Positions 1,629 to 46,195 of a stretch of 46,195 nt of DNA are shown here, in pieces (positions within the stretch are counted from its first letter, which is position 1; every line of letters begins with the position of its first letter). A program made the translations under genes and the position numbers. Where the stretch lies: positions 1 through 46,195 of the forward strand of contig JAPLNM010000082.1 of the NCBI GenBank assembly GCA_026692845.1, in the 5' to 3' direction. Origin of the DNA: Planctomycetota bacterium. Lineage in GTDB: Bacteria > Planctomycetota > Planctomycetia > Pirellulales > Pirellulaceae. The notes beneath the pieces were generated by a model. The model was not told the origin of the DNA, did not search any database, and worked only from the letters and a program-made list of their open reading frames with translations.

Positions 1629-1631
1629 TTC

Positions 1632-2487: not shown

Positions 2488-2497
2488 ATTTCTCCTC

Positions 2498-3445: not shown

Positions 3446-3530
3446 CGTACCTGGATCCTCCGCCGAATCGCGTTGATTGGATGAATCGTGTTTGCTTCGT
3501 TGGCCAAGGGGTACTGGCGTAAATCGGCGA

Positions 3531-4973: not shown

Positions 4974-5234
4974 GTTCAAGCTCCCTTGTGCCCAAATGGA
5001 CTGCTAAATGTCGGCCCCTACTGCCCATTTGTTTGGCAATTCAACGGCAATCTCCGGGCAATCGCTTGGTGCAAAACCAGACCGTAGCGGTGTTTCACTG
5101 AGTGATCGGATCTTGACGGCAAACAACCAGGTTAAAAGACGCGGAGAATGGACTGGTGAGCAAATGACGCGCCAAACTCTCGGAGCATCAAGCCATTTGG
5201 AGTCAATTGCCCCTGGCAGCCTGCGCTTGGTCGC

Positions 5235-6095: not shown

Positions 6096-6172
6096 GAACA
6101 TAACCTTTCAAGAACAGACTAAAGGAAGCTTGATAAATGCAAAGACCTTACGGAGCACTTGCTCGGTAAGCG

Positions 6173-6499
6173 TTAGAGCATGCGAGATCGGGCCATTGCG
6201 TCTTCGGCCATTCGAATGAAACTTGTCTCGCCGGTGCCCGCATAGGCTCTCTGATATGTAACGCTCAGGAGGGTAAAATTGAAAGCTTCGGTAGGCTCGA
6301 TCTGGCAAGCCTTTTCCGCATGAGCGACGGCCAAGGTATGCTCACCCAGACTCGTAAAGACCCGGGCCAAGGTCAAGTGACTCAAAACATGCTCAGGGGA
6401 TTCTTCCAAAATTCCTAGCAGCAAATCGCGCGCTTCTTCAGACTGTCCCGCATCCTTGAGCTTCTCGGCTTGGCTGTAACGTTCATTGACGGTGCTCAT
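6173..6499 (-). CDS. Small TPR-repeat protein
   Basis: 108 residues and no signal peptide. Two to three tetratricopeptide repeats are visible: YSQAEKLKDAGQSEEARDLL, then ESPEHVLSHLTLARVFTSLG with EHTLAVAHAEKACQIEP, then a degenerate third repeat with AFNFTLLSVTYQRAYAGTGE. TPRs are helical protein-interaction scaffolds; nothing shows the partner. Start: an upstream ATG at 6541 would add 14 residues, but the ATG at 6499 is preceded by AAAGGGCCGC, a good ribosome binding site at the right spacing, so 6499 is chosen. The gene lies upstream of the sugar isomerase-like gene on the same strand and may share its transcript. It is divergent from hisA, with a 279-bp gap holding both promoters; no clear promoter motif was identified there. 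Confidence 0.82.
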   Translation of the reverse strand: MSTVNERYSQAEKLKDAGQSEEARDLLLGILEESPEHVLSHLTLARVFTSLGEHTLAVAHAEKACQIEPTEAFNFTLLSVTYQRAYAGTGETSFIRMAEDAMARSRML

Positions 6500-6778
6500 G
6501 CGGCCCTTTAAATTCGTTGGATCCATAGGTTGCAGCAGCAATCGAACAGGGGCCTTCCCTGACGATATCCTCTGCGGTTAATCAATTTCAGCGACCAATT
6601 GTAACGTGTTTGGAACCAATTGGGGAACAGGATTCAAGCCTTATCAGGGGGTTTCGCTATGGCGATGCCTACCCAAGTCGGTAATATTTTCCGGTTGCAG
6701 GGGCTAGCTTCCGCCCTGCGATCCATCCTCGATCCATTTTTACTCATTTTTACGACCAAAACTCGGGATCCCCCCTCC

Positions 6779-11074: not shown

Positions 11075-11500
11075 ATGAGATCCTTTTTCTTTGCAATTGC
11101 TGCGACCACCCTTGTCTCAAGCGTTGTTTTAGCCGATGAGCCAGCAACCAAGAAGCTCACCCCCAAAGGGCAACAGATGTTGGGCCAGTTGGGCCTCGGT
11201 GGGCTTCAGCCGATCGAAAAGAAGGATGTTTCGAAAGTGCGAGGAACCGGGGGAGCCGCAGCGACCCGAGGACATAGTTTCATTTCCGGCATGCTCCTTG
11301 ACGGCAATTCGAAGAGTTATGTCTTCGGTGTGGACACCAACATGGGTTTTGCCAACTTAGAGCAATGCGGTATCGCGGGTCCCATCGATCCATTCCACGT
11401 CCAAAAATCATCCTTGGCTTTGCAACTCGAAGTCGAGAACTCCTTCCTCGGTACGATCATCGGTGCGGCCGGAGGAACAGCGACCTCCTATTTCCGCTAG
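11075..11500 (+). CDS. Small secreted protein with LGLxxL...VRG motif (141 aa)
   Basis: 141 residues. An N-terminal signal peptide is clear: MRSFFFAIAATTLVSSVVLA then DEPATKK, with likely cleavage after VLA. Next comes LGLGGLQPIEKKDVSKVRGT, which matches an N-terminal segment in the two small proteins at 44555-44977 and 45223-45645 (LGL..[IL]...........[IV]RG). The rest is Gly/Ala-rich with beta-like stretches (SGMLLDGNSKSYVFGVDTN, SLALQLEVENSFLG) and ends in a Gly/Ala-rich segment, TIIGAAGGTATSYFR. One Cys is present. I do not recognise the family and give no function. The open frame runs upstream to 10883, but the ATG at 11075 gives the signal peptide and has GAGAG upstream. A strong terminator follows at 11533. 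It lies just before the giant gene but has its own terminator. Confidence 0.8.
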   Translation: MRSFFFAIAATTLVSSVVLADEPATKKLTPKGQQMLGQLGLGGLQPIEKKDVSKVRGTGGAAATRGHSFISGMLLDGNSKSYVFGVDTNMGFANLEQCGIAGPIDPFHVQKSSLALQLEVENSFLGTIIGAAGGTATSYFR

Positions 11501-11532
11501 TCCCAACCTCGATTCGACAAGCGATTTTGTTC

Positions 11533-11566
11533 AAAAGACCACCGTTTACGGTGGTCTTTTTTTTTT
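11533..11566 (+). terminator. Intrinsic terminator of the small secreted-protein gene
   Basis: AAAAGACCACCG-TTTA-CGGTGGTCTTTT: a 12-bp perfect stem with a TTTA loop, running into an uninterrupted T-tract (11557-11566), 33 bp after the stop codon. It should separate the transcript of the 11075 gene from the giant gene downstream. Confidence 0.92.
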
Positions 11567-11873
11567 GCAAAAATCCAAGGGTTTCTCAGAGCGAGTGTCA
11601 AACAATTCTGGTCAACCCTATGGCCGAGATGTGCCGAATGTGGCCGCTAGGCTGTTGATGTACTACGTGTCTAATGACACGGTTGTTTTTTCAACCCTTA
11701 AATGGCTAGAAATAAATGGCTAGAAACTCTTGCCAAGGAGCCAAGTTACAGAGCTTGTTGATGTAATCCAAGGCTTTTTACCTCAGGCTACGCCCTCTAT
11801 ACTAGCCCCACTGAGGTTACCCAGCAGTAACCTGATCGTAAATTTGCAACGATTTTGGAATGCTAGGCTAAGT
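11567..11873 (+). other. Leader region of the giant gene
   Basis: About 307 bases before the preferred ATG of the giant gene. It holds a short inverted repeat GTGTC-TAAT-GACAC (11667-11680), a 14-bp tandem duplication (11699-11726) and a TATACT box (11798-11803) with a poor TTTTTA at 17 bp spacing upstream (11775-11780), which is only a weak promoter candidate. The giant frame is open back to a TTG at 11730, but this 5' part codes for nothing recognisable. Confidence 0.4.
11699..11726 (+). repeat. 14-bp perfect tandem duplication
   Basis: TAAATGGCTAGAAA occurs twice head-to-tail without a mismatch, upstream of the giant gene. It could be a binding-site duplication or a slippage product. Confidence 0.7.
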
Positions 11874-14800
11874 ATGAATGTGGATCCCACGAAACGCGGT
11901 CCGGTGCGGAACCGCAAGGGCTCATCGCTGCGCAAGAAACTCTTCCGCAAAAATCTCTTCGAAGGCCTAGAAAACAGGTTCTTGCTTGCCCTGGACCCCT
12001 TGGGTTTTGCCCCAGACGGGACAGAGACCCCCACGGGCACCTCTGTTTTTGGCAAGCAAACACAGCTGAAAGATCCGTTTCTTGCCATATCTAGCGGGGA
12101 CTTCGCGGCCGCGAGTTTGCAAGGTTCGTCGCAAAATAACGCAGTGATTCCTTGGGGCCGATACAAATCACTCTCGGAGTTGGAAACAAATCTCAAGCTT
12201 GCGCTGACTCCTCTAGATACGGCTGCATTCGCTTCGGTCCCCCTGAAAGAGGGTCCGGCCGAGGATCTGCAATCTGGCTCTCCAGTGCATTTGGTTTTGA
12301 TTGATTACCGCCTGAATCCCCATCAGACGGATCGGCTCGCGAATTCGACCTCGGTCGCTCGGTCCAGCCCGTTGGAACAAGCTTGGCAAACTCCTCAGGC
12401 CGACGGGCTGGCGGATGTCTTCATGGTGGGTCCGGATACCCCTTGGGAACAGATCAACACGCTTCTGCTTTCCCATCACAATTTGCAATCGCTCCAAATC
12501 CTATCGCACGCTTCGCCAGGCCACCTCTTTTTGGGAGGTACCACCCTCGGAGATCAAAACCTCGAGGCGCTGGCTACGGACTTCGAGGGCTGGAAGAAGT
12601 CCTTTGTTCCAGACGCAGATATTTTGATCTATGGCTGCGACTTTGCAGGTTCCGCAAGCGGCCAGGGTTTCATCCAGAAAATCGCGTCATGGACCGGTAC
12701 AGATGTCGCTGCTTCGATGAATCCAACAGGCCCAGAGTCGCTTGGGGGGGACTGGAATCTTGAGTTCCAAACCGGGCCCATCGGAGTCCCTGGTCTGAAA
12801 CTTGACAACAGCCAGTTTTCTGGCCTGCTGAGCCCTTGGTCGTTCGAGGACAACTGGTCTTCTGATCAAATCCAATCGAGCGAACCGGTCATCCTGGATT
12901 TTTCCAAAGTTACTGGGAACCTTGACTTTGCGATCACTGCGACGGGACTGACCGTTGGCTACCAGGATCAAAATCGCGTTTCTACCCTTCAGTTGACCAC
13001 AAACTCCAAAGTCACCATTTACGGTGGGTTGGGGTCGGATACTTACAATGTTTCGTCAAATGCCCTGATCGATCGGATTTCCGACCCCGCAGGAAGCGAC
13101 ATCGTCCGCTTCGGTGTATCGACGGACCTTTCGAAGTCCACTGGCTCGACATCGGCTTCAAACCCAGGCGATCCTTCGGTTTACTCCATCGATGGAATTG
13201 AGGATTTCGAAGGCCAAATCGTGATCGGAAATGCGATCAAGGAACAGATTCAAAACACGCTAGATGGCTGGTCGAGCATCGTTTCAGAATTTGTTGTCTC
13301 CAGTGAGCTCTCCTCGAAAATTCCGCCGCTGGATTTGAGTCCTTCGGAAATCGTCGCCAGGGGTTTTGGGACCTCCTTTGCGAATCCCCAAGATGTTCAA
13401 GACACTGTCGCAGAAATCTTCTCATTCAACTCCATCGCCAGCCTTCCTGCCGTCCAGCTTGGGACGATCGCCTCGACACTCGAGTCGGAGTTGCAGCAAT
13501 CTTTGGGAACTAGTGCCACCGTAACGGCCAGAATCCGCGATTGGAAGGAACTCACATTCGATATCCGCTTTACCGGTCAAGAAACAACCCAAAGCCCCCT
13601 TGCTCTCGATGACCGGCTCCGAGCCGATTTAGCAAGCGCAGGCATTACTTTAAGCTCTTCTTCAAACCTAAACGTCCTTGCAACGGTCGGTGGAGGACTC
13701 GAGCTTGGACTGGATCTATCTAACGCCATCAGTTTGACCTCCACCGCAAGCCTCGAAGGGCTTGGCTTCATAAGGGTTTCTCCGATAACCCTCGGGGTTG
13801 CGATCGACGCGCAAAACATCCAATCGATCGTTGGACTCGACGCTACGGTATTTGGAACCGCTGCCAATATTCAAGTCAACGATGGTCAAGTTCGGATCAA
13901 TGCACAAGCCAGTTTTGCCCTCTCCGCTTCCGAACTAGATGGAACCGGTAGGTTCAAGTTACCCCTGACACCCAGAGTTCCGGATCTTGAATTCCAAGCC
14001 GACGGAAAGCTTGATGCAAGTTTTCCTCTAGCGATGACACTTGGTAGTTTCGATCTATCAAACTACGGAACTCCAACACTGCTTCTGAATACCGATGCGC
14101 TGTTGGATATCAAAGATGGAAGGGCACTGGTAACCAGTCCGTCGGTCTCGTTGGATGTACAGCTCAGCAAAACGCTGATCGACTCGCTCCTGAACGGACT
14201 TGGACAACTGCGTGAGGTCGGGGAAAAGATCCCATTTGGGTTGTTCGATCGACCGCTGCCAGGTTTAGGGCAGAGTCTCAATCAATTGCTGACCAACAGC
14301 GAATCGACCCTCGGCCAAGGCGGCCTAGGGGGAGTCTTTAGGCTCAAGGAAGCAGCAGGTTATTACCTTTACGCGGATTATGATTCTCAAAGCGGCACGG
14401 GAGCATCCATCAACCCGTCTGCAACGGTCCGGGGACTGCTCGATTCCCTGAACAAAGCCTTTGCTTCCCTTACACAAATCCGCTTCGACCTCGATCGGAT
14501 GGACTGGAGTGGCGTTAATCTCTCTGGATTTGATTTTAGTGGATACCGAAACAGCGGAGGTCGATCGCTCGCCGCAAATTACCTCAGAGGATTAAACTTT
14601 AGTGGCAGCGATCTTCGCGGCGCAAACTTCACAGGACTTGACCTCACGGGGGTCGACTTCTCTGGCGCTCGTTTCGACTCGAGCACCACTTTCACTGGAG
14701 CGATTCTTCGACGAGTTCGTTTCTGCGACGCCGACCTTCGTGGCGTCAATCTATCTGGATTGGATTTAAGGTGGGCGGATTTTAGTCGTTCGCGAGTCGA

Positions 14801-17800
14801 CAATCTGGATTTGCGAAATTCCGCCGCATTCGATGTGTCGTTCGCAAACATCAAGTTTTCAACCAACGGCATTCCGAGTCTTGAAAACCTCGTTACCAAT
14901 CTCAATCTCTCGGACTGGTTTGGGCCATCATCTAGCAGCGGATGGAGAAAACTTTATTACGGTCTAGATCTGTCGGGCAGTTCAAGCAAAAACTGGGCTC
15001 GATTCGACCTCTCAGGATTGGATTTCTCAGGAGTTAACCTCAGTGGGTTTGACCTTCAGGGAGTCAACCTTAGAAACACTATCCTGTCGAATGCAAACCT
15101 ATCAAATACGAATCTCTCCAATGCATTCGCGTGGTTTACGTCTTGGAAAAACGCACAACTAACAGGATCCAACTATGTTGGGCTTGTCTCGAATGTCGAG
15201 CTTTCTGGATTCGGATCCGGGATTAAATGGTTGAGTTCTCAATCGAGCGGTAAAGACACGGATTTTATCAATTTCGATTTCTCGGGTTGGGATCTTTCGA
15301 GTATCGACTTCACTGGAGTATCTATCTCCGGAGCGAATTTCTCAGGTGCGAAACTTCGCGGCGCGTACCTGGGGAGCTTTTTTACAAATCTTGATTTCTC
15401 GTTTGCCGATTTAAGCGGAATCGACCTCTCAGGCATTTCTACTATTTCCGGTAATTTTCGCGGTTCGATCCTATCCGGATTGGATTTTACCGGAGTTTCC
15501 TGGAATGTTCCCTCTTTGGATTTCACTGGAGTGGACTTCTCAGGCTCCTCCAAATTCGAGGGGCTATTCTCAAACCTTAGTGGAAATGTCCAGGCAAAGT
15601 TTGACCACGCGATGTTCCAAGGTGTTGATTTCAGCAACCTATCGGCCAGTGCGAAGGAGCTCTTTAGATTTGGAGCGTTCCGTGGGGCGAACTTCCGATC
15701 GGCAAACCTATCTGGAATCAATTTTTCCGGGGTCGATCTCTCGAATTCGGTGTTTGAATTAGCCAACTTCCAAGGAGTCAAACTCGCTAACGCAGACCTC
15801 ACTGGAGCCAATCTCAATGGAATCCTCGGTGCGATTACCGATGTTGCTGGCGCGTTCTTCGACTCACTTTCTAGTCTTCCTGCCCAGTGGATCGGAGATA
15901 CTGCACTTCTAAGCTCCCTCAATCGAGTTGTTATCGACGATATTTTTGATCAGGGAGCCCCCGGCCCACCGTTCTCCTTCTCTGGCGGTCTGACTTTCAA
16001 GAACAATAAAGTGGATTTGTCTCTTAACCTTCAGGCAAATCTCGATAGGAGCTTCGAAAAAGATTTCGCGCTCAGCGGCGATGATCTCTCTCAAGACCTA
16101 AGAAATGTTTTACCCTCCATGTCTGTCGCCGGAAAAGCGTCCGGTCGCGGTGTGTTTGCCTTGGATGTTGATTTGGGGGTTTTCCTCGGTCTTCGCAACC
16201 AATCCCTGGCAGGATTGTTCAACGTTCCGCTTCCTGATCTATCATCACTGGATCCGTACATCCGTTTGAACCGCTTTGATGTTGGAGCTTCCCTGGGAAC
16301 TTCCGGGATCAAGGCAAACCTCAGCATCGCTAATCTAGGATCCGTGTCGGTCGACAACCTCTTCGTCAAGATGGCCGGAGGTGCTAGGGCATCGATTAAC
16401 ACCGCGGATGCGAATAACATCCTTCGTCTTTCCGAAATTGCGTCCAAGAAGACGGCGGACCCCGATGGCTGGTTCAAGAATCTCCTTGAGGTAACTCCAA
16501 CCGGCTCCTTTGATGCCGGTTTTGAAGCCACTGTCGACTCAGCAATTCAAATCGGTGGACAGAGTTTCTCTGCCTACTTTGGCAACCTAATCATCAATAT
16601 GACCAGCGACCAATTGGTCTACAACGACGAAAATGGTGTTGCCAGACTAGCAACACCAAAGCTTACCCTGGACGTCGAGCTCAACGCGCTGCAGCGAGAC
16701 ACGCTTCTACAGGCACTTACGTCGCTCAAGGATTCGAGCGACAGTGCGCTAAACAGCGGGTTTTTGAACTCGAAAATTCCAGGTCTTGATAAATCGCTCA
16801 AAGAACTCTTTGTCGTCAGTGGCGATACGGACTTTATCTCGAATCTGGTGAACCTAGTCAACGATGCTAGGGCCTACTTTAACCAGACCAATCTTTACCT
16901 CCAGAGCACAGCGCCGGAGAACCACCAGACGGCGACAATCCGAGGGCTTGCCGCAGCATTGAACGAAGCCCTGGCCCGCTCGACGGCGCTTCCGTTTGAT
17001 ACGGCCAAGTCGCTTTGGAACGGCGCAAAGCTGGCCTACACGAACTTCACGGACCTGGATCTGACGGGCTTTAGCTTCGTGGGCGCAGACCTGCGCAGTG
17101 CGGACTTTAGCGGAGCGATTCTCAAGAACGTGAACTTCTCGGGCGCGAACCTCGCTGGAGCGACCTTCGCTGGCGCGAGCCTCGTGGGTGCGAACCTAAG
17201 GGGCTCGAAGCTCAGCGGCGTATCCTTCGACGAGGTGGACCTGCGGGATGCGAACCTTTCGGATACGAACCTGCAAGGGGTTTCGCTTAAGAAGGCCTCG
17301 CTCATCGGCACGAGCTTTGCCAAGAGCATCGTCGATTCGACGACCGATATTGCCGGAGCATTTTATACCGGAGTCTTGGCCGATGAGCTGAGCCTAGCGG
17401 CCAACAAGGCTGCGGCGCTGAAGCTCGATGTTCTCACAACGGTAACGAGCCTCCAAGGCTATGTCCTCAACGGTTTTGATCTGTCGAATTTGGATCTTTC
17501 CAAGGTCGACCTTAGCGAGGCGACGCTCATCGCAGCGAACCTTCGCAACACGATCCTCGATAGCCAGATGCTGGTCCTTGCAGATCTACAGCAGGCCTTG
17601 ATCTACCAGGCGACGTTCCTGAACGCCACGCCCAGCGTGCAGGATCTGCTAGCCAATGGGATCGTGGTGGCCAAGGCCGCCGCCGGTCAGATCCAGTCGA
17701 TCGATTTTGGGGACGCCGCTAGTATCCCGGATAAGCTCAAGAGCATCGGGGCGGGGGCTTTAAGCCAATCGGCGGATCTTTCAGGGATGGATCTGTCGGG

Positions 17801-20800
17801 CTTTGACCTATCGGGGATCGATTTTTCTGGATTGAAGCTTTTGGGTGCGAACCTTTCGAGCGCTAAGCTTGACGGGGCGAATCTGGCCAGTGCTCTGATC
17901 GACCAGGGGACGGCGTTTGTCAATTCGAACCTCGAAGGTTTGTTGGGTCTTCCGGGTACACTCCTGGGAGACTTTACCCGGGCGAACCTCTCTGGCTTGG
18001 ATCTAACGGGCAAGGTCATGGAGGGCTTGAAGCTTTCTGGCGCGAGCCTCAAGGGTGCGATACTGACCAACGCGAAGTTGGGTTTGTCGGACCTTCGCGA
18101 TGCGATCTTGACCGATGTGATGGCAGTCGGTGCCGATGCAGCCGCGCAGATCGCTGCACTGCAGGCAGCCTTGTCGGGGGCCCTGTACGATCAGTTCACG
18201 GAGTTTACCCAGAGCTCACGGGAGTTGCTCGAGGCGGCCATGGCGCCGATGATGCTCGATGAGGTCTTTGAACAAGGGGCCAAGGGCCCCCTATTCTCGT
18301 TCTTGGGTGGCTTGGATATCGGCAGCGATGGGATCGGCTTGTCGCTGAACCTGCAAGTCAACATCGACAAGGAGCTATCGAGGGCGTTTTCGTTAGGCAC
18401 ATCGGATTTACCTGGTATCGCTCAGCAGTTGGTACCTGATTTTAACCTTTCGGGGACCGCCACAGCGCGTCTGGTCACGGCCATCGACGTGGATCTTGGT
18501 ATGGACATCGCCAAGGGTAGCGGCACGAGCTTTACTCTGAGCAGCGAGTCATGGTTCCGCTTGAACCGATTCGATGCCGGGGTGCGTTTGGCAGTCAGTG
18601 GCCTAGAGGCGGACGTGTCGATCGCGGGTCTAGCGAATGTTTCGGTCAGCGAGGGCCTGATCGATCTTCGAGCCGCAGCTCAGATCGGCCTTGAGGATCC
18701 CGACAACAGCGATGGACTCAATCGGATCACGTATGCCGATCGCCAAGCGCGGAGCTTGTCGCAGATGGTGGATTTGACCACGACGTCGAACCTCCGAGGG
18801 AGCCTGCTACTGAATGCCCAAGGGGCGGGCTTTAACCTCAATGACTTTGGTCTTCCGACGTTGATCTTCCGAGCCCCGGATCTTATCACCAAGGATGCGA
18901 CTACGGGCCAGTACCAGGTGTCCAAACCCGAGGTGTTCTTGGACGTCCGGATCACCGAGGCGCTGAAGCTCAAGATTTTGGATTTGCTCGGAACGATCGA
19001 CGATTCTGGGAATGCGGCCCTATCGAATGGCTTGCTCAACAACCCGATCCCGGGACTCGGCAAGAGTGTCAACGATATTTTGCAAGTGCCGAAGGATTCG
19101 CTAGGGAACATCACAGCCTTTGGATTCAAAGCCGCAGCCCAAGTGTACCTTGACAGTTTCAGTTACACGACCAACAGTTTTCCGAGCCTATCGGGTTTGA
19201 GCCAAGTGCTCCAGAAGATCCTCTCGAAGGATCTTTCGGTACCGTTTAATACCACCCAGCGGGACTGGTCGGGGTTCGACTTCTCGGGCTATGAGTTTAG
19301 CAAGTTTTCGATCGATGCGCTACGGAACTTCAACTTCAAGGGGGCGAATCTCTCGGGTGCGAACTTCAGTGGGCTGGATCTCTCGGGAGTGGACTTCTCT
19401 GGAGCGAACCTGCAAGGATCGATCTTCGATGCTCTGACGAACCTGCGTGGAGTGAAGTTCAGCGGAGCGGATCTTCGGGGTATCAACTGGACAGGCATCG
19501 ATCTTCGTGGTTTGGACCTCCAGGGTGTGAATCTCTCGGGTGTGAACTTCAGTGGTTTTGATCTTTCGCGGATCAACTTCCGGGGCGCGAATCTAACTGG
19601 GGTGAATTTCTCTGGCGCGAACCTGCGATGGTCGAATCTCACGGGTACGAACCTTGTCGGTGCCGATCTGACCAAGGTTTTTGCGTTGGATGTAACCTGG
19701 AGCAGTATCTTCAGTAGCGATTTGAAATTTAATTCGACGACCAAGCTCGACAATATGCTTGTGGATCTGAATCTATCGAGCTTGTTTGGTTCGCTTTCTA
19801 GCAAGATGAAGAAGTTGCAGGTCGGTCTGGACCTTTCGGGCATGGACTACAACTGGAGCAAGTTGGATCTTTCGGGGATCGACTTCTCGGGGGTGAACCT
19901 GACTGGCATCGACTTTAGTTCCAGCAACCTTTCGAGGGTGAAGTTCCATGGTTCGAGCCTCTCGAACATGAACTTAAGCAATGCGTTTGGTTGGAACATC
20001 GATTGGGGAAGCGGCCAAGGGACGACGGGATTCAGTGGGGTTACCGGGATCAACCTGAGTGGGTTCCTGAGCAACGTCGCGTTACCGAGTTTTGGGGGAT
20101 CGAGCGGTACGTACAGGAACTGGACCAGTGGCTTGAACCTTTCCGGGCAGAACTTCGACTGGAGTGGCTGGGATCTAAGCGGCGTGGACTTTGGGGGCAT
20201 TCGACTTGGGGACATGGACTTTAGCTGGAGCAATCTGTGCGATGCGAGTTTCACCGGCACGGTGTTTGGCCTTGTGAATTGGACCGGATCGACATGGAAG
20301 GGGATCGATCTTTCGGGGTTAACGCTCAAGGGTATCTTCCGGAACGTGGATTTCAGTGGAGTGACGTTCCCTGCGGGAGTCAATATTGACTTTACGGGTT
20401 TGGATTTTAGCGGGGCGAAGTTCCGTGGTTCGATAGGATTCGAGAATTTATTGGGTCAGCTTTATGATGGCTGGAACAGCCTACCAGGCACACTCGATAG
20501 CCGCATCAAGATCCAGTTCGACTGGGTGGATCTCAGTGGGCTTGATTTGACGAGTTGGAGTCTCCCGCGAGCTGACGTCTTGCAGTTTGGAGATTTCCAA
20601 GGTGCGAACTTTAGCAAGATAAAATTCCCGAGTTTGGGCACGGGCCAATCGTGGGACCTCTCGGGCTTGAACTTGAGCATGAGCAGTTGGACGGGGGTAA
20701 GTGTAGGCGGGACGACGCAGTTTAGCTTTGGTCGCTCGAACTTGACCGGAGCGGACCTGAGCGGGATTGCAGACAAGATCGGCTCGGCGGCCAAGGCCTT

Positions 20801-23800
20801 CTACGATGGCCTAACATCGTTTGGCAGCGCGACGTTAGCCTTCATCACCGGTTTGAACATGGATGAGCAGGTCATCGACGATATTTTCGATAAGCCCATC
20901 ACGGGGCCATTCTTTGAGGTGGAGCCATTCTTCGATCCATCGGGTAGTGAGGTTGTTGTAGGGGTAAATATTCTCAGCAATGTTGACGTCAAGAACCTCT
21001 TTGAGTTCTCCTATGGTTCTGGAAGTGTTTTCAATGTGCAAGGCGTTTTGGGTAGCCGATTCTTGCTCGGCCTGGATATGCAAGTCGGAGTTTCGATTGG
21101 GTTGCGAACCGGGAACACTCCCGTAGGAAACATCCCCCTGCCCTCTTTGGACGATACCGACTTGTTCTTCAATCTGAACCGGTTCGATATTGGGCTTGGA
21201 TTAACCTTGAACGGTCTAAAGGCCAACATCGGATCTGCGGACTTTATCAACGCTGAAATTGAAGATGGAAGTTTTGACATCAAGGCAGCTGCATCGATCA
21301 GGGCGATCGACCCAGACAATAGCGATGGAAAGGGGCGTATCACCCGGTCTGAGGTGAATGGGCTTACTAGTTTGTCTGATCTGTTCACTTTCACGCCCGC
21401 TTTTGCATTTGACGGGCAATTAGTGCTTGGTGGAGACCTCGGAGGATTCAACACGGATGACTTTGGGAATCCAATATTAACGGTTACGTCATCGATCGTA
21501 GAAGGTAAATTGGTACCGGACTATTTCTTTGATGTTAGTATTGAAGCTGACAAGGTGAAGACCAATCTGCGCAGCGTATTCAACAAGGTTGCAGAGTTCG
21601 GTTCGTCGATTGACGAATCGTCGTTCTTGTCAACGACTTTACCATTTGTCAGAGAAAGTCTTGGTGGGATACTCACCAGCAAAGATGGACGCCATTTGGG
21701 GGATGTCTTTTCGTTCCAGAGAATAACAGGTCTGGGTAATGACAACCAGGAGATCAAGACGAATGTCTTAGAGGACTACTATACCAAATCGCTCGAAGAC
21801 AATAAGACCCCGACTTATGGTGGTCTAATCAAGTATCTCCAAGATTACCTTGCCGCGAGCGGAGCCTACAGCGACTTGGAGCCTTTGTTTCCAAGCAACT
21901 ATGAAGACAACGACGATGCCCCCTTTTCGGTTGGGGGGGGATTGGTTTTGCAAAACCGAAATGAGGTTCAAGAGCTTTCGGTCGATGCGACCGCGGGGAC
22001 ATATAGCTTGATCCTGACGATGGGAGGTGGCGAATACAGGACCGCTCCAATCGCATGGAATGCCGATGCAACCGCTATTAGGACGGCAGTCCAAGCGGCA
22101 ATAGGAATGATGGCAGATTGGTCCGGCGTTAAATCCAACAAATTACAGATCACCGGACAAGGTACAACGGCTAATCCTTGGTTGCTCAAAGAGACGACAT
22201 CGGGCTCCCTGACCAAGTACCGTTTGAGAATCACAACAAGCAATTCCCAGGCACCGTCGACTACAGACATCATTGAATCTACTGACCTCTCAGCTATACA
22301 GGCAGCGATTCAGAACAAGTTGTCTAGTCCGGCAGTTTCCGCTGTTTCAGCGGATCCATCCGGGGGTTGGAGGGTCAGTATTTCGGGATCTGGAGTCGTC
22401 GATAGTCAATTAAGGATCGAGTTACTTGAAGAAGCCGATGTGGCTGTACGCAGCAGTGGGAGCAAGTACGAGATAGAGTTTCAAGGTTCCATGTCGGCGA
22501 CAAATGTGAGCCGGTTGAGGGTTGACACGTCTTCCTTGATTGGTAGTGCTTCGTTGAGCACGACCCAACAGGGTGCGACACGTGGTTTGGTACTGGATTT
22601 ACTCGCCAATCTAGAGAAGAACGTCGCGTTGCCTTTCGATCTAGGAACTGGGTTGGATGACCTGGGCTTTGCGCTCAAGGGTGACGGTACGATCAATCTG
22701 TCTGCATTGGTTGGAATGGATTTGAGTTTCGGCTTGGAATTTACATCTCTTTCGAGTTTGGGATCCGGCGATAGTTACTTTTTCCAAGCGAGAGATATTC
22801 GCGCCAAGGCTATTGCGTCTTTGAGCAATTTCAACGCGGGGGTCTCTCTTGGGGTTCTGGATGCGAAAATCGACAATGGTCAGTTTCGTTTCGAGGCCGA
22901 TGCGGGGATACAGGTAAAGAAAACTGCCGATTCGCAGTATGGCGGACAGAAAGTTACGGTCACAGATTTTTCGAGTTCGGCTTCGGCCGACTTGATCGAG
23001 GCCGATGCTAGCTTATGGGCTCTTGCGAATTTCCCGATCCAGGCGAATCTTTTCGGCGGAGATCTGACCAAGCTAACTGGCGGACAGAATCCTAGTGTTG
23101 AAATCAAATGGGGTAGCCAAGCGTATCCGATTGATATCGCGCTGGTATCACAGACTAAGCCGATCATCATACGCAAGAATTTTACGAATCTTGCTGGTTT
23201 GACGAACATGACACCGGCGATGATGGTTCAGATGCTTGTAAACATCGGTGATTTTCTCAATCAATTTCGGGATTTGGAGGCCTTTTCGGTTCCGATCCCT
23301 TTCACCGGTAGCAATCTTGGGGATGCATTTGATTTCGCCTACGGGTGGACCAAGATCCTTAACGAACGCTTGCAAGGGATTCTTAGCTTTAATTTAACCG
23401 GTTCCGAGATAGTTTCGCCGGTTCTTGAAAAGGATGTCGCGTTCGATTTGATGTTAGAGCGACCCGGCGATCTTGTCGTCAGTCGTTACACGGTTTTGCT
23501 CAACCGATCAGATACACTCGGTTTCAAGCGTATCGAAGAACTTGCATCCTATATTGGATCGAAGGTTGCCGGTTCGACAAATGGTGCATTGAAATTAAAC
23601 GACCAACTTCCAAAGTGGGTGCAATCGAACGTTACGACAGGTTCGATTGATACCACGGGCAACCAGTCTTCCGCATTAGCTAGCACCGGGATTGCAGCGA
23701 CGGTGACCCGCGAAGTGATCGGAGGTAAGGCGATCCCTGCCCAGTTGTTGCTAGATATCTCCACTGCGTCGGGAGTGTTGGATATCCGTTACAAAGGGCA

Positions 23801-35800: not shown

Positions 35801-38800
35801 CGAGGGGCATGCGGAATTGGATAACTCTACGTTCGCATCCATCCTCGGGACGCTACGGACTGCCTACACGACAAGCAATATCAAGGGTAGTGATCAGATC
35901 ACCTTAGCAAGTGGCCCTATGTTGCTTAATCGGGCCTCGATTTTGGCGGGCAGAACTATCAATACAAGAGATTTCGGTTCGCAATCGGCAGTTTTCGCAG
36001 ACAAGAATTTTATTTTCGCAGGGGGTGGCAACGATCAAATCTTAGCGGATGCCCCGATGAACCTACTGGTCGCCGATGCCGGTCGCATGGACTTCCTGGC
36101 AGACGGTAAACTGAGGGAAATCAAGAGCTTAAGTGAGGACTACGCTGACGGGGCAGGTTTAGGGACTTCGGGCGATGATTTAGCGATACTCTACAACACG
36201 AGGCGTTTTGTCGCTTACGAGACGCAGGTCATCGACGATGACAGTCAACCGCAGAATGATACGCGCAATGTGGTGATCGCAGGCGATGGTGTCGACTATA
36301 TTCAACTCAGTGCCGGGATCAATTCCGTGCTGGGTGACGAGGGGCGGCTTTGGATCGATCGGAATGTCGTTACACAAGCTACGGAGTTCTGGACCCAACT
36401 CGAGACGCTCAATGGCAATGTTGGCGACAAGGATTTGATCGAGGTCGATGCTCTAAGCGGATACAATGTGGTTTTCGGTGGTTTCCAAGATGACACCATC
36501 CGTGCGATCCGGTCCAATGGAGGCTTCTCGGATACATTCGGACTGACCTATCAACCCACCGATTTGTCGCAGTTCATCGCCTTTGGAGACAACGGATTTG
36601 TTGCTTTAGATCGCATGGATCGGCCTTTTGAGCTTAGGTCCACGCAAATGGACTTCGGAGGAAATGACACGATTCTTACTCCATTCGCGCACGATGTACT
36701 CGTCGGCGGGTTCGGAAGCGATATTCTTCGCACTTCAGGCGGAGACAACGTGTTGTTCGGTGACACCGGTGCGATGAATTGGGAATTCCATTATCCCCAA
36801 GTCGGTTGGCGCTATCCGATAGGTCCGAGTGCTCCAGTTTGGACATTGACCAAGATAACTGCGACTTCGGAGGCCACATCCCAAGCCGGAGATGATTTCC
36901 TGTACACTTCGGCCGGCCAGGATCTTTTGATGACCGGTCCTGGTAGCGACCAGGCTTTTAGTGGATTGGGCAATGACGTATTGCTTTCGTATCAAGCAAC
37001 CCTTTATCTGCCGGTGATACCACCTTTGCCCTTTGGACTATGGGGAGATCAAAGAGTGCGAAGTCTACTGGGTGATTGGTTGACCGACGGTCGTCCAAAC
37101 GGGGATAGAGCAACTCTATGGGCTTACGGGAACTTCATGCCTCTGAACGAGGGTGGAGACAATGTTTCGCTCACAGCCAACAGCAATTATCTTGTCGGTG
37201 ACAGTGGCGACGATATCTATTTCATCACTCCTGGAGGAGCTGACACTGTCCAGGATGTGACAGGCTACGATACCGTCAGCTTCCAACTGAGTCCCAAGCC
37301 CGTGACACTTGATATCGACTTGTTTGCCAAGTCGCAATACATGACGACTCCAGGTACCAGTAATGGACCGTCAATCACGTATCTTAAATCGACGGACCAA
37401 CCCGATATCAGTCCCTTTGAGAATTTCATCGGCTCTCCCTACTCTGACGTGGTGATCGTCAATCCTCTGAAGGTTACTCGAACCCTCCGAGCAGGCACAC
37501 AAGAGACGTTGGCTGATAGGCCCTATGGAGATGAACTGAGAGTTCGTACCGGCGGAAACACCGTCCAGGACAATGGACTCATTTTGGCCGTCAGCGGTCT
37601 AGGTGATGTAATGCACTACGACTTTGAAACGATCGAATGGATCGATGGCGTTCCATTCATCATCGACGAGGGGGATCGCGAGTGGCATCAAAGCGGAGGA
37701 TTTACGAAGATCACAGGTAGCACGATGCTCCAGCAAGATGCTTATTACTCGACGGCAGCCACGAGCAACACCAGCAATCTTGCCGGTTGGGACGTCTCGA
37801 GACTGAGCCCAGGCCCGTACCAGCTTGCTTTGACATGGCCAGAGCCTAATGTCTCATTTCAATTCACACCAAACGTCGAAGTCAAAAATTCCACCGGCCA
37901 AGTCCAGGCGCAAACGCGATTTGATCAACGTACGGCCGTGCCGCAGGTGAAAGCCTTTGGTAATCGTTGGTTCGATTTTGGGCCAACCATCGATGTCGGA
38001 TTGGATCGGTTTATCACCGTCGATTACACCACCAAGTCGTTGGAGTACTTTCTAGCAGACGGATTGAAGGTGGATCGGGTCCGGTACAATTCTCCAGAAA
38101 TCCGAGTCGTCGATCTTACAGACAATTCAGAGGTCATCTCCGGCAACGCGACGAGCGGCTTTGGAGATGTTTACTTTGGTTCTTCGAGCCAAAAGACCTA
38201 CCGCATCTTCAATATGGGCAATGCTCCGCTGAAGCTCAATATCGTCAATCGAAATGAGTCTGGCGAGTTACCTCAGTTTCGAGTGATTGACGGAGTCGTC
38301 CTAGATGTGGCACAGAGCAATTCGCTTCCCAACGGTTTCAATCAAGCGACGATTGTCTACTCTCAACCCGGTCAGGATTCCATTCTACCAGGCCAAAGCG
38401 CAGTCTTAACCATCGGAATGGATACTCAAGTCCCAGGCTCGCACTTCGGTAACTTTCTTTTGGAAACTAACGACGTCAACGAGTCGATCTTTAAGATTAG
38501 GCTTGATGGTCGCGTTGGATCGCAAGCCCAGACGCCAAGGTTCGTCGATAACAAGTCGAGTACCTTCAAAGTGAATTCAGGTACGGTCACGGAAGTCACA
38601 AGTTCCTCCCCGCGTGGTGGTAGTCAGCACCAAGGTTTGGCTTCGAAGGCAAACAAGGTTTCGTGGACTCAGACCGGCTTGCCGACAGCAAGATATCGGA
38701 TATCTGCCACCTGGGCTGCGTTATCGACTGCGGACGTCAAATCGGTATACAAGGTGACTTGGGGTAGTCAGTCGCGTGTAATTCAACTGAATCAGAAGGT

Positions 38801-41800
38801 GAATCCTTCAAGTCTTGCAGGCGGATACGTCAAAGATAGTTCTCCGTGGGTGGACCTTGTTTCAGATGTATTCATTTCCAGCGGAGAGGTTCTTAATGTC
38901 GAACTATCTGGAGGTGCGATCCTTGGCGATGCGATACGAATTCAGCAGATAGGACACGTCAACGATCCAGCGACACCAGTGGTGGAGTTGATCGATCAAA
39001 TTACAGGAAAACCGCTCAGCACCCGAAACGGTTTGTGGGATTTTGGTAGCTTGCAACTAAACCAGAGCACCGAGCGCACGTTGTTGTTACGCAACACGGG
39101 TAATCAGGATTTGGTGATTCCCGCTGACCCTGTTTTGGGTCCTGGATTTGTATTCGTAGATTCAGTGTTTGTAGACCGAGTGATTCAACCTGGGAAAACC
39201 ACCACGTTGAAGATCCGCTTTGATGCGACGATTTTTGGTGATATCCAAACCCAACTCCGGTTCGTATCGAACGATGCGGAGAATCGCGATGTGGTTTTGA
39301 ATCTCAAGGCAAAAGTTCTTGAGGAATTTATCTTGACGGCAGATAGCCCTGCCTCCTTCAAGCCAGTTGGTATTTTTGTCCCCACTGGAACGGTGGCACC
39401 TAGTGGCAAATCTTTCAGTAAAAATATCTATGTTGGATATCGAGACGGTGACAGTGCTACATGGTCCTTCACGGATCTTGCGCCCGGAATTTATTCTGTT
39501 TACGCAACCTGGGATTCGTCGTTGATCACTTCGGGCAATCCGGTCAAACCCCCACTTTCCGAAACGGTGCCTTACGTCATCAAAGGAAAGAATGGTGAAG
39601 AGGCGAAAACGATCATTGTCAACCAAAGGCAGCCTGCAGATCAGGAGTACAGCCAAAACAAAGGTTGGGATTATTTAACTAGCTATGTCACAACAGGTAG
39701 TGACTTGGATGTTACCATTCAAAGCATTACTGCTAGCACCACCATTCATGCGGATTCGATTCGTCTTGTCCGGAATTTTTATTCCGATCCTGTCGCCGAA
39801 GTCCAAGGTAAAATTGTCACCCCTAGTTCGTTCATCGACTTTGGGGTTATCGATCAAGGCGAAAAGCAGACGATTGGGGTCAGGATCACCAATCCGACAC
39901 TCACGCCGTTGATGATGCGTAAGCTTGTAGAGCTTCCGACCGGCTTTATCACTAGCTATGTTCCAGGTTATCTTGAGCCAGGCGGTTCTTATAATTTTAG
40001 CATTACCTTCACTGGTCAGACTTTCGGCTGGTATCGCGGAAGGTTTGCGATTGAAACCAGTGATGTGCTTAACTCGATTCTATCGTTTGGAATTGGAGGC
40101 CAAGTTCGTAGCCAAGCCTTTTTCGTCGACAATACCGACCCGAGATTCACCTTGAGCGGTTCGTCTCCCTTCATTCGAAACGGTGCCGAGTTTTTCCTGG
40201 GTGCTGCTCGGTCAACGGCAAGAACCAACGATGTTGGTACTTGGACGCTGACGGGACTCAAGCCAGGTAATTATCGTGTCAGCACAACTTGGGGGGCTCA
40301 ACCAGCCCATTTGACCAACGTCCCTTTTGTTGTCTCAACATCCCAAGTGCCTTCTGTTGCGACGCTTTGGGATCAATCAAAACCAGTGGGGGGTAACGCG
40401 AGTTCCTTCTGGGACAACAATTACTGGTGGGTCGATCTAGCTTCGTCTATCGAAGTCGGCAGCAACGGTCAGCTAACGGTGAAAGCTACCCACCCCGGTC
40501 CTAATTTTCGCGAGATATTGCTCGATGCAATCCGCGTTGAGCCAGTAATTGCAAAGGTTTACGGAACGCCCAAACTCGAAGTGGTCAACTTACTGGTCGA
40601 GCGTGATCTTGCCTACAATCGCTATGTCCGTGGCGATTTGAACGACCAGTTCCACTTTGATTTCGGTTCTTCCACGAGTCCGATCGGTTCAGGATTCTCC
40701 GGAGGAGCCACACCTGCTCTTTACACGCCAGTCGATGCAACGAAGGAATACAACTATCAACAGATGTACGGTTGGTTAGGTACAGCTCCGCGTACGATCG
40801 ATCGAAGCGATCAGCGAGGCACGGAATCGGGATTGATTACCGATGCTGTATGGGATACCAAAACGAGAGAATTTCGCTTGGATCTTCCGCAAGGCAACTA
40901 TCAGTTTGCTATCACCTTTGGGGATCAATGGCAATACGATTCAAATTCTGACCAACTGCTCCCCCAAACAACGAACAATCCGCTTAAGACGATGTACTTG
41001 GAGCACCTGAATCGTAACGCGGGCCCTGTGGTCCTTAGGTTCCAGCCTGATTCTCTTGACGGCTACTGGGCGATTGCATCCATGGATGTACGACGAATGG
41101 AGACCGTGGTCAAGAATGGACTGACATTGACCCCAAGCAGCAACAACACACAGGTGGCGATCTCGGCGAGCAATTTGCCAGCGGGCGTTTACACAATCTC
41201 CGCTATTCGTGGAGAGATAAACACTCCGGATGTTGACCCCACGTTGTTAGGTGTCCAAGTTCTCGTTGGATCCAACGGGGTATTGCAAGCCAACGCGACG
41301 CGCAGTTCGAGTTTGGGCACAATCTCGGTCCGAGCGGATCATATTCACGCGGCGGCAAGACTCGAGGGGATTCAAGCGCAAAGCTCTACCAGCGTATCGC
41401 ATCGATGGGACTTCAATGCATCGAACAATTTAACGCAATCCGAGTACGCCGGTGTAACGAGTCAACAGGCTTACACCCCCGATATCGGCTTTGGGTGGCA
41501 AATACCCAACGATTTGTATGCCAAGAACCCGGGCTCTGTGGCACCTAAGGAAAGCGAATGGGCTGACCGTACACTTCCGTCAGGGTTTGACGCGACGACG
41601 GTCCAGGGTGGCTTGGTGCAGTCGCTCGTTAGAGACGGCCACAAGCACAAGCTGGCACGAGATTTCCGAGTCGACCTGCCCAACGGAGATTATTCCGTGA
41701 CAGTGACCGTGGGAGGCCCTGCCATTGTTCCGGACGTGGATATCGCCGTGGTCAATCAACCGAGCCAGTTTGTGGCGAATATTTTCACGGGGGTTCGGGA

Positions 41801-44321: not shown

Positions 44322-44491
44322 GAGTTCGGCTCATAGGCTTGCCTGTGATCGTTCCGGGATCCCAGAAGGATTACAGCCATTGGGCCCGAGCCTACTGGTC
44401 TTCGCTCACGCGGGAGCTAAGTGCAGCGCTAACTCCGGCTACGCGTTCAACCTCGCGTTCTGCGGTCCACCTTCGGGTGACAAAGCTAAAG

Positions 44492-44532
44492 AAAAAAGGC
44501 TGACCAATCACAGGTCAGCCTTTGGGTTTTTT
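44492..44532. terminator. Bidirectional intrinsic terminator between the giant gene and the minus-strand gene
   Basis: AAAGGCTGACC-AATCACA-GGTCAGCCTTT is an 11-bp perfect stem, with TTTTTT (44527-44532) after it on the plus strand and AAAAAA (44492-44497) before it, giving a T-tract on the minus strand. It lies 32 bp past the stop of the 44555-44977 gene and about 170 bp past the giant gene's stop. The intervening 44322-44490 contains no gene; its GC-rich text resembles dispersed intergenic filler, but I cannot confirm a repeat. Confidence 0.92.
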
Positions 44533-44554
44533 CTAACTGCGAACGAGCTTGGAA

Positions 44555-44977
44555 CTACGGGAGGGTGAAGCCTGCAGCAAAACCCGAAGATCCAGCGGCT
44601 TGTCCGGTTCCGAATAGCAATCCCGGTGAGAAACTAGCGCTGAAGTTTCCGATATCAATTTTGAAAGCGGATATCCCAACGGCGGTCTCTACGGCTGCCG
44701 TCGATGAAGTTCCGGCTCCCGCATTCTCGTCGGTGGAGCGAGCAAAATTATTTGAACTAAAGTTGAACTGTGAACCCGTGGCAGGGTCATATATCACGGC
44801 CATGAAGGAGCTCAGACCTGTCGCGTAAGCGGCGCTGCTTTGTCCTCGGATTTGATCGCCAGCCCGTTGGTTGATCGGCTTGATGCTGCTAAGCCCCAAA
44901 GCCTTCAGATCGACTGGATCGGCCGCCATCGCTTGACCGGTAAACAACAAGCAAAAACTCAGAAGAATCTTTCGCAT
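44555..44977 (-). CDS. Small secreted protein with LGLxxI...IRG motif, paralogue A (140 aa)
   Basis: 140 residues. Signal peptide MRKILLSFCLLFTGQAMA then ADPVDLK. It carries LGLSSIKPINQRAGDQIRGQ, the motif shared with the 11075 and 45223 proteins. The remainder is Ser/Gly/Ala/Phe-rich with strands SFMAVIYDPATGSQFNFSS, GISAFKIDIGNFSASF and a C-terminal LLFGTGQAAG...FTLP. Compared without gaps to the 45223 paralogue, 70 of the last 121 residues are identical by eye. The mature region has no Cys. No known family is recognised; it is presumably exported to the periplasm or cell surface. Start: the ATG at 44977 has GGAGAG about 6 nt upstream; the longer frame to 45007 adds 10 residues before the signal peptide. 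It has its own terminator, and the paralogue lies upstream on the same strand. Confidence 0.85.
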   Translation of the reverse strand: MRKILLSFCLLFTGQAMAADPVDLKALGLSSIKPINQRAGDQIRGQSSAAYATGLSSFMAVIYDPATGSQFNFSSNNFARSTDENAGAGTSSTAAVETAVGISAFKIDIGNFSASFSPGLLFGTGQAAGSSGFAAGFTLP

Positions 44978-45058
44978 TCGAACTCTCCAAAAAAATGAAA
45001 ACAACAACCCCCAGCGTTTTGGAGTTGTTACGGAAACACCAGTCGCCAGGGATGTGCA

Positions 45059-45086
45059 AATCTATTTAGTTACGATGCGCAATCAA
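45059..45086 (-). promoter_or_regulatory. Candidate promoter of paralogue A
   Basis: On the minus strand, TTGATT (45081-45086), a 16-bp spacer and TAGATT (45059-45064). Each hexamer matches the sigma-70 consensus in 4 of 6 positions. It lies about 80 bp before the ATG. Confidence 0.3.
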
Positions 45087-45143
45087 GTGCACGCGGACGC
45101 TAAAAACAAAAAATTCCTGCTTTAAACGGACAATTTTAAAACG

Positions 45144-45175
45144 AAAAAAGGCTGGCGTCAGAAACGCCAACCTTT
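45144..45175 (-). terminator. Intrinsic terminator of paralogue B
   Basis: On the minus strand, AAAGGTTGGCGT-TTCTG-ACGCCAGCCTTT is a 12-bp stem with one G-U pair, followed by a T-tract (complement of 45144-45149) and more Ts. It lies about 48 bp after the stop of the 45223 gene. The left arm begins AAAAAAGGCTG on the plus strand, like the terminator at 44492. Confidence 0.88.
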
Positions 45176-45222
45176 CTCAGGAAGTAGTTAAATAAAAACA
45201 ATCCGCTTACGCGGACAAGAGA

Positions 45223-45645
45223 CTACGGCAACGTGAAGGTGATAACAAAGTCCGATGCGCCTGCAGCTTGGCCGGTTCCGAACAGAAGACCTGCGGTGAA
45301 CTGAGCATCGAAGTTGCCGATGTTGATCGTAAAGGCCGAGATACCAGCACCGGTTTCTGCGCCCGTGGTGGAAACAGACGCTGCACCTGCGTTCTCGTCA
45401 CTGGAAGACGAGAAGTTGTTGGTTGCGAAGTTGAATTGGGACGAAGTGGTAGGATCGTAAACGATCGCTGTCAGGGCGCTCAAGCCGGTGGAGTTCGCCG
45501 AAGCGCTCAAACCACGGACTTCATTGCCGACGTCTTCGCTAACTGTTTGCAAAGAACCCAAACCCAAATCGGACAGATCCGATGGATCGCTAGCTAGGGC
45601 AACATTCCCGACGAGCAAAGCGAGAATCAAGATAAACTTCTTCAT
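45223..45645 (-). CDS. Small secreted protein with LGLxxL...VRG motif, paralogue B (140 aa)
   Basis: 140 residues. Signal peptide MKKFILILALLVGNVALA then SDPSDL. It contains LGLGSLQTVSEDVGNEVRGL, then AIVYDPTTSSQFNFATNNF, a Ser-rich stretch ending in SDENAGAA, GISAFTINIGNFDAQFTAG and the closing LLFGTGQAAG...FTLP. It is the same length as paralogue A and alignable over the mature region with no gap. The family is not recognised. The even hydrophobic/Ser alternation suggests a beta-rich secreted protein. Start: the ATG at 45645 is preceded by TGGAG; the open frame runs to 45756 but would bury the signal peptide. A good promoter lies at 45735-45763 and a terminator at 45144-45175, so it is a single-gene transcript. 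Confidence 0.85.
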   Translation of the reverse strand: MKKFILILALLVGNVALASDPSDLSDLGLGSLQTVSEDVGNEVRGLSASANSTGLSALTAIVYDPTTSSQFNFATNNFSSSSDENAGAASVSTTGAETGAGISAFTINIGNFDAQFTAGLLFGTGQAAGASDFVITFTLP

Positions 45646-45875: not shown

Positions 45876-45900
45876 GCTACTAGGTACAAAGGCTAGTAGC
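45876..45900 (-). terminator. Hairpin at the stop codon of the right-edge gene
   Basis: GCTACTAG-(9 nt)-CTAGTAGC is a perfect 8-bp stem overlapping the stop codon. On the minus strand only CTTTG follows, so it is at best a weak terminator. Confidence 0.4.
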
Positions 45901-46195
45901 TGAGACTCGCACTTACAAAAAAGCCGAGCAGAACCAAATCCTCGGGATTTGCATCTGCGCGCGTGGCGATGGCTCCTCCAAACTCGTTCGTGTTGATTTG
46001 ACCGACCATGCTAGCTACCGACTGGCTGCGAGTCGCGATACTGCCGGTCTGCCAATACTGCCCTTCAAAACCGCTTCTCAGGTGGAGCGATGCGGGATTG
46101 CAATCGATCCATGAAACTGGGCATCGATAATCGAGGCCTAACTGAAGCATGCCCAGACCGATCATGCCGTCCCAATTTGCGATCGCTTCGTCTCG
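45893..46195 (-). CDS. Probable outer-membrane beta-barrel protein, C-terminal part (partial)
   Basis: The last ~100 residues of a gene that runs off the right edge: the frame stays open through the final base, so the ATG at 46165 is internal (reading NWDGMIGLGMLQLGLDYRCP). It shows amphipathic strands separated by loops: LGLDYRCPVSW, LRSGFEGQYWQTG, then VLLGFFVSASLSY ending in a C-terminal aromatic residue, the beta-signal recognised by the Bam complex. The SFRxGFEGQYW-type strand and the Cys pair (YRCP, IDCN) recall the Lpg1974/BBP7-like porin-type families common in planctomycetes, but I cannot tell which. It is probably an integral outer-membrane protein. The 45646-45892 gap separates it from paralogue B. 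Confidence 0.55.
   Translation of the reverse strand, partial: RDEAIANWDGMIGLGMLQLGLDYRCPVSWIDCNPASLHLRSGFEGQYWQTGSIATRSQSVASMVGQINTNEFGGAIATRADANPEDLVLLGFFVSASLSY

Follow-up and report, generated by a model that had tools for sequence, protein, structure and literature searches.

A variant C39-type leader is probable in small secreted proteins of Pirellulales encoded with FapD- and FapF-like genes

Three small secreted proteins with a common segment

The window studied here is an entire contig (C82, JAPLNM010000082.1, 46,195 nucleotides) of a Planctomycetota bacterium of the family Pirellulaceae, and our subject is a short segment, LGL…VRG, shared by three of its small proteins, P1, P2 and P3, which is probably a leader for a periplasmic C39 peptidase. 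An earlier note on this DNA had described three frames with signal-peptide-like starts, and they are present as it placed them, P1 on the + strand and P2 and P3 on the minus strand; signal peptides were judged by eye and with a simple home-made hydrophobicity rule, which also set the start codons. The segments, numbered with the Gly of VRG as position -2, were scored with a 25-column motif profile (15 rows from seven genomes) in which all three are themselves rows. The features are as follows (handles with G, C and L stand for genomes, contigs and loci).

11075..11500, + strand: P1, a 141-residue secreted protein with signal peptide, candidate leader and a mature part with a GGTATSYFR end
11180..11245, + strand: leader segment of P1, LGQLGLGGLQPIEKKDVSKVRG, positions -23 to -2; E value 1.7e-9
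11533..11560, + strand: intrinsic-terminator-like hairpin 3' of P1, 12 pairs and then a T run (scan: 3 sites against a shuffle mean of 1.5)
44555..44977, - strand: P2, a 140-residue secreted protein, paralogue of P3
44843..44908, - strand: leader segment of P2, LKALGLSSIKPINQRAGDQIRG; E value 5.4e-9
44495..44523, - strand: terminator-like hairpin 3' of P2, 11 pairs, scored on both strands (7 sites against a shuffle mean of 2.7)
45223..45645, - strand: P3, a 140-residue secreted protein
45511..45576, - strand: leader segment of P3, LSDLGLGSLQTVSEDVGNEVRG; E value 3.0e-9

A hairpin 3' of P3, resembling those after P1 and P2, is visible in the sequence, without an entry in the terminator scan.

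The spacing that the earlier note had found equal is so, with the R of RG 17 residues after the first L in P1, P2 and P3. Its statement that the rest of the proteins diverges applies to P1 and fails for P2 and P3, which have 55% identity across 140 of 140 residues and on this identity are tandem paralogues; moreover, P1 shares with both a weaker second block, G.S......D..T.S (alignment A7). Two-sequence BLASTP gave E values of 7e-5 for P1 and P2 and of 2e-7 for P1 and P3, the latter alignment including the signal peptide. P1 has a counterpart in the relative G013 (L039 6130-6552), and P1-type copies are also found in L044, L110, L117, L133 and L134. A fourth copy of the same genome, P4, lies on contig C80 (4193-4597, + strand) and has 134 residues.

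In an AlphaFold2 model of P3, residues 37-44 (leader positions -10 to -3) form the sole helix beyond the signal peptide and are followed by long beta strands, the confidence being modest, with a predicted local distance difference test score (pLDDT) of 74 and a predicted template modelling score (pTM) of 0.42. With this model of pTM 0.42 a fold search returned nothing with an E value <0.001, and P3 had no match in a plasmid collection.

The segment defines a family within the order

A profile search beyond the three genes, as proposed in the earlier note, revealed a conservation that far exceeds them. A 47-position profile of P1 to P4 found strong relatives in genomes of the same genus and the same family, and the 25-column profile was run on 294 genomes of the phylum and 396 of the order, in such a way that only the best candidates per genome were scored (also in the peptidase searches described below). 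At E <=0.01 it matched 35 of the 396 order genomes; among the phylum genomes only weak matches appeared outside the own order (best E 0.003), two of which, from one genus (G248 and G322; L139 and L140), were inspected and contained no recognisable leader protein.

Altogether the LGL…VRG segment was found in 91 copies from 51 loci of the order, 23 of these loci having two or more. The count excludes L141, a leucine-rich repeat (LRR)-like array, and matches with E >0.2, and it includes four accepted copies with E values from 0.007 to 0.16 (L133 4683, L117 10929, L048 2916 and L134 2065), three cut by contig ends (L130, L041 4506 and L125 9210) and one with an ambiguous base and an odd C-terminus (L049 7045). 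No motif was present in L053 (G044). Complete copies have 105-202 residues including the signal peptide, and in the usual architecture the signal peptide is followed by L..MGLxxMqvmSDxE[AG]xx[VI]RG and the mature part. The mean pairwise identity is 0.43 within the 22-residue segment versus 0.14 (ungapped) over the next 22 residues, and a regular expression for the segment, written after the family had been seen, matched 83 of the 91 members versus 1 of 4123 other open reading frames (ORFs) of >=80 residues at the same loci. Mature parts are rich in Gly, Ser and Ala (16, 13 and 12%), and 85 of the 91 are free of cysteine. As the earlier note had supposed, the segment matches no known domain: Pfam and NCBIfam gave no relevant match for P1, P2 and P3, nor for the 47 of the 91 copies scanned, except for one CsgA-like copy, and an assignment of the small proteins to a known domain was rejected.

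That exception (L109 8730-9335, with the same protein in L204, a Pirellulaceae metagenome-assembled genome) bears CsgA-like curlin repeats in the mature part behind its leader segment, and by this composition would be a curli-type subunit behind a FapD/FapF-type leader. It was the only CsgA match in the 47 copies, and P1, P2 and P3 had no curlin match.

Peptidase and barrel genes accompany the segment

Gene clustering of the loci gave three conserved neighbours, N1, N2 and N3. The last 141 bases of the window are identical to the first 141 of contig C80, and in the own genome these genes are read across this overlap.

45893..46195 of the window, - strand: C-terminal 100 residues of N1, the gene continuing on C80
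C80 (L052) 1-1344, - strand: rest of N1
C80 (L052) 1357-2130, - strand: N3, C39 peptidase
C80 (L052) 2118-3803, - strand: N2, FapF-like
C80 (L052) 4697-6547, + strand: second N1 barrel-like gene, beside P4

The order is thus N2-N3-N1-P3-P2 on one strand, with P4 diverging at the far side and P1 converging from beyond a giant gene. P1 to P3 had been presented in the earlier note as genes flanking that gene; for P2 and P3 this is too little, as they continue into an operon-like row past the contig end.

N3 has a signal-peptide-like start and matches Peptidase_C39 (PF03412) with an E value of 2e-22, above the curated cut-off. Of the NCBIfam models, C39_FapD scored best with both N3 proteins scanned, and it matches all 26 aligned N3 sequences, in which the active-site residues Q, C, H and D are invariant (26/26); the N3 profile also matches LahT (E 1.3e-13). 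The score against the NCBIfam FapD model was 94.9 bits, below the equivalog cut-off of 330. By these matches N3 is a FapD-like C39 peptidase homologue. The N2 profile matches the FapF crystal sequences (E 1.7e-28), and the 18 best Foldseek matches of an AlphaFold2 model of N2, confident in its barrel part and not in its long N-terminal part, were all FapF, so that N2 is, on profile and model, a clear FapF homologue and a FapF-like outer-membrane barrel, with 29.8 bits against the NCBIfam FapF model, below the equivalog cut-off of 700. N1 is a second barrel-like protein with weak Legionella_OMP matches in 4 of 24 sequences and no convincing profile similarity to N2. Beyond N1-N3, no conserved FapA/FapE-type neighbour was seen among the clustered neighbours. 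The 47 copies scanned with NCBIfam and Pfam had no Fap match, the presence of FapA/FapE models in those libraries being unchecked.

The segment and N3 occur together. The N3 profile matched 36 of the 396 order genomes (taken as the same 396 from the equal size and shared handles of both sets) at E 1e-20, in such a way that 33 genomes have motif and N3, two the motif only, three N3 only and 358 neither (Fisher p 2.7e-42 with both motif-only genomes retained, a value overstated by the kinship of the genomes). The motif-only genomes are G031, whose match is the LRR-like array and looks false, and G677, with a weak match (E 0.0098) in an uninspected 786-residue frame. Those with N3 only are G557, G551 and G647; deviant leaders, LSATEANEIRG and LTADEAQQVRG, were read in G557 and in the second N3 locus of G466, and none was recognised in L253 (G551) and L254 (G647). 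In the own genome, which is 96% complete, the only PF03412 match is the N3 of this locus. By locus, N3 was found in 29 of the 51 that bear copies, N2 in 31, N1 in 31, and at least one of them in 38. In a scan of named genomes with N3, the best 80 of 565 relatives were taken, 42 closest loci (40 titled planctomycetes, two titled only "bacterium") and 38 outside planctomycetes; among the 42, some of which are source contigs of the profile, the motif was found at E <=1e-3 in 34 and at 0.03 in one more, L213.

At L213 (3195-5522), N3 is accompanied by four secreted proteins in tandem whose leaders retain VRG/IRG and have no LGL part. By their place and motif they are a divergent branch of the leader.

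The proposal of the earlier note that the segment is a shared leader, sorting or processing signal is well supported by these data: across the 91 copies it is what stays conserved while the mature parts vary, and it tracks a C39 leader peptidase almost one-to-one. The same two facts make it highly unlikely that the segment is a conserved structural piece of some small domain family, such as one LRR-like unit, with the FapD/FapF linkage reflecting common regulation only. What speaks for that explanation is the weak profile match in G031 (L141 1-781), an LRR-like array reading LxLSGLTSITDEQAESL, whose resemblance to the leader is unexplained.

The register of the segment resembles that of double-glycine leaders

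C39 leaders of the double-glycine (GG) type have been described with L-12, E-8, L-7, a hydrophobic -4, G-2 and G-1, and a helix at about -10 to -4 (PMC6363468, PMC6959990; papers given by PMC number are cited here for parts of their text), E-8 being dispensable and -3 tolerant for LahT (same sources). In the 91 copies, -2 is always Gly and -4 always V or I, as in those leaders, and the hydrophobic -12 is M, V, I or L in 89. Position -3 is Arg in 88, and -8 is E in 34, Q in 15 and D in 8, the remainder being other residues. Ser at -11 (70/91) and Asp at -10 (60/91) likely form a helix cap, and the helix of the P3 model (-10 to -3) overlaps that of the literature. Position -15 is L, M, I, V or A in all 91; a hydrophobic residue there resembles ComC leaders and was not counted as support.

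Genes near FapD-like peptidases of other phyla encode leaders in the same register

At the non-planctomycete loci, 15 of the 130 signal-peptide ORFs lying within 3.5 kb of a FapD-like gene matched the literature leader pattern; shuffles gave an expectation of 0.65, and of 47 such ORFs more than 5 kb away none matched. The ORFs are mechanical frames, and the patterns were fixed once a first look had been taken. The gene behind fapD, called FapE here by place and length, has an RG-ending leader of the same register in the pseudomonad loci L221, L229, L242 and L251 and in Guyparkeria (L223, L235). It reads LSDKELSQLRG-RFVMPG in L229, LSDAEMANLRG-RYVLP in L242 and VSDAELSELRG-RYVMP in L251, position -7 being L or M in the four pseudomonad loci. 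LTDPELAQMRG-KF and LSDPQLAQMRG-RF are the readings in Halothiobacillus and Guyparkeria, and LTDPEMAEIRG-GF that in a Nitrospirae bin. FapB/C-like frames, with three published repeats in each frame, mark L221, L229 and L251 as fap operons. In Methylocaldum there are true GG leaders upstream, MTETQLAAVEGG. Beside a FapD-like peptidase, Methylocaldum (three) and Methyloversatilis (one) encode similar secreted proteins of 93-96 residues that bear true GG leaders (L225 4278-6655, L246 10704-11099).

In the Fap literature, FapE alone was reported with complete N-terminal processing, the FapF linker may be cut too, and the Fap proteins are said, in the portion of the paper cited, to have no canonical C39 site (PMC5557850). 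The register found here suggests a near-canonical C39 site in FapE, as assigned by place.

The giant gene and the rest of the contig

11730-44321, + strand: giant frame of 10,863 residues (32.6 kb); DUF4347 (E 6.5e-36) and pentapeptide repeats lie within its first 1,090 codons

Between P1 and P2 lies this surface-protein gene, and the earlier note had considered a functional link with it. As one functional unit, the small proteins would be accessory or export partners of the giant protein, which would agree with their adjacency in the window and with LEPR-like frames in L045 and L186. Against this, G013 keeps the order N2-N3-N1-P3-P2-P1 without the giant gene, with 39 bases separating the stop codons of P2 and P1 (L039 6087/6127), and the conserved partners are N1-N3. 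The linkage was rejected on these grounds; a single unit is extremely improbable, and the giant gene probably stands there by coincidence. The 39-base spacing in G013 implies an insertion of the giant frame here, its loss from G013 or a rearrangement that moved it, and the genes beyond P1 differ between the two genomes. An enrichment near LEPR-XLL genes, also suggested in the earlier note, was touched by LEPR-like frames, seen in L045, L186 and L187 and in no other fetched locus, which is weak evidence on enrichment, and the regular expression used for them misses the variant start of the window's own giant frame.

At the left contig end, a PT-HINT (pretoxin HINT) domain protein is encoded at 26-703 (+ strand), and at 1059-2105 (- strand) a PIN_3 protein adjoins an HTH_17 protein, resembling a toxin-antitoxin pair.

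Discussion

Starting from the computed family, gene linkage, N3 and N2 homology and leader register, we infer a course of recognition, cleavage, export and assembly. The small proteins would cross the inner membrane via Sec and lose their signal peptide, and the short helix SDxEAxxVRG, with LGLxxM before it, would then be recognised by the periplasmic FapD-like N3 of the same locus, which would cut just behind VRG, after G or one residue later. The mature Gly/Ser/Ala-rich beta-strand protein would exit through the FapF-like outer-membrane barrel N2 and remain on the cell surface or close to it, probably as a subunit of fibres or matrix, N1 being a putative accessory part in the outer membrane. 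A fibre or matrix role is proposed because of the predicted beta strands (one model), the Gly/Ser/Ala richness, the FapF-type pore and the CsgA-like repeats in L109. That the segment is a variant C39-type, double-glycine-like leader read in the periplasm within a FapD/FapF-type export system is, as a whole, the probable explanation.

Several points weigh against this. Position -7 is Ala in 44 copies, Gly in 40, Ser in 4 and Val in 3 (A or G in 84/91) instead of the canonical Leu, and -1 is most often K (17), Q (16), L (15), T (11), M (10), H (5), A (5), S (4) or R (4) of 91, instead of Gly, Ala or Ser; with -7 and -1 noncanonical, the scissile bond is therefore not placeable to the residue. 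In PCAT1, an L-7A change strongly reduces binding (PMC6959990). N3 and N2 both miss the NCBIfam equivalog cut-offs for FapD and FapF, 13 of the 51 copy-bearing loci are without any N1-N3 gene (many contigs break off close by), G620 has its copy and its N3 on separate contigs, and 7 of the 42 closest N3 loci have no leader protein in the stretch covered. Members of the same loci supplied the sequences for the profiles, which makes their own scores circular. Outside planctomycetes, the leader was found in only 11 of 38 loci with the strict pattern and in 15 of 38 with the strict or the looser RG/TG one, several loci showing nothing, and the Burkholderia-group gene behind fapD reads V[DG]DDVLxxQ[TS]GK, without hydrophobic -4 or acidic -8.

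The absence of the canonical Gly -1 and Leu -7 would suit targeting without cutting, in which the segment would serve for docking or export and guide the subunit to N3 and N2, while N3 is chaperone-like or cuts another protein, for example N2. The N-terminal targeting stretch of curli CsgA is a model for such a docking signal. Noncatalytic C39-like domains are known in type I secretion, and the FapF linker has been suggested as a FapD target (PMC5557850). We nevertheless consider targeting alone unlikely, as the catalytic residues are invariant in all N3 sequences aligned and the C38A change in FapD abolishes FapC secretion in an E. coli assay (PMC5557850).

Taking the segment as a cleavable leader, the closest known system is Fap of Pseudomonas. 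Both have a C39 peptidase with a signal-peptide-like start and a FapF-type barrel encoded with small Sec-secreted proteins, and the gene behind fapD carries an RG-ending leader of the same register in pseudomonads and Guyparkeria. The planctomycete leader differs in standing on many, often tandem, small proteins, with the LGLxxM extension and A/G at -7, and its loci differ in the extra barrel-like N1 and in the missed FapD and FapF cut-offs. Fap-type repeats were tried for the mature parts and rejected: the published minimal pattern (PMC3792158) occurs in 0 of 91, whereas the control, six FapB/C-like frames of L221, L229 and L251, gave three per frame.

In a 2025 model for the nap island of Neisseria (NapA-C, the C39 peptidase NapP and the FapF-like NapF), a C39 peptidase likewise cuts the pre-peptides in the periplasm and a FapF relative exports them (PMC11798529); NapA-C, as described there, are <10 kDa, cationic, GG-type and bacteriocin-like, whereas the planctomycete proteins have a signal peptide, 105-202 residues and the RG type. 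The leaders of PCAT/AMS substrates (LahT, PCAT1, ComA) resemble the segment in the helix at about -10 to -4, the hydrophobic -12 and -4 and Gly -2, and differ in that their peptidase is part of an ATP-binding cassette transporter acting on the cytosolic side and in the Leu -7 and Gly/Ala/Ser -1 typical there (PMC6363468, PMC6959990). Curli share with the family the repeats of the one member already described (29.2 bits with a cut-off of 160), and differ in that no CsgG-type pore was noted among the conserved neighbours, CsgG itself not being searched for. Substrates of PCAT/AMS are not known to use a Sec signal.

A 2013 survey placed Fap in Proteobacteria only (PMC3792158, in the part cited), and in 2018 fapD and fapF were reported as colocalised in five further phyla, among which planctomycetes may be (PMC6173800). 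Literature searches on Planctomycet with FapF returned only work on Arctic streams, and none on Planctomycet with FapC and functional amyloid. FapD is a periplasmic C39 peptidase required for FapC secretion in the E. coli assay (PMC5557850); its substrate has been called unclear or undetermined (PMC5557850, PMC6173800), and a 2025 review names FapE and FapF as its presumed targets (PMC12822426).

The two-step idea, a periplasmic C39 cut followed by export through a FapF relative, is already in print for the small nap peptides. With its several substrates per peptidase, the planctomycete system lets the recognition motif emerge from comparison, and the register recurs behind fapD; the predicted cut site bears on what FapD-class peptidases cut. 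We give an even chance to a broader view, in which a portable two-step code, a Sec signal and then a periplasmic C39 leader [LMV][ST]DxE[AGLM]xx[VIL]RG, would define one FapD/FapF-type pathway from planctomycetes to Nitrospirae and pseudomonads; FapE, and not FapB/C, would be the FapD substrate in Fap, and planctomycetes would export many unrelated beta-rich surface proteins via one pore. If true, the leader proposed here would add a FapD/FapF-type export route in Pirellulales.

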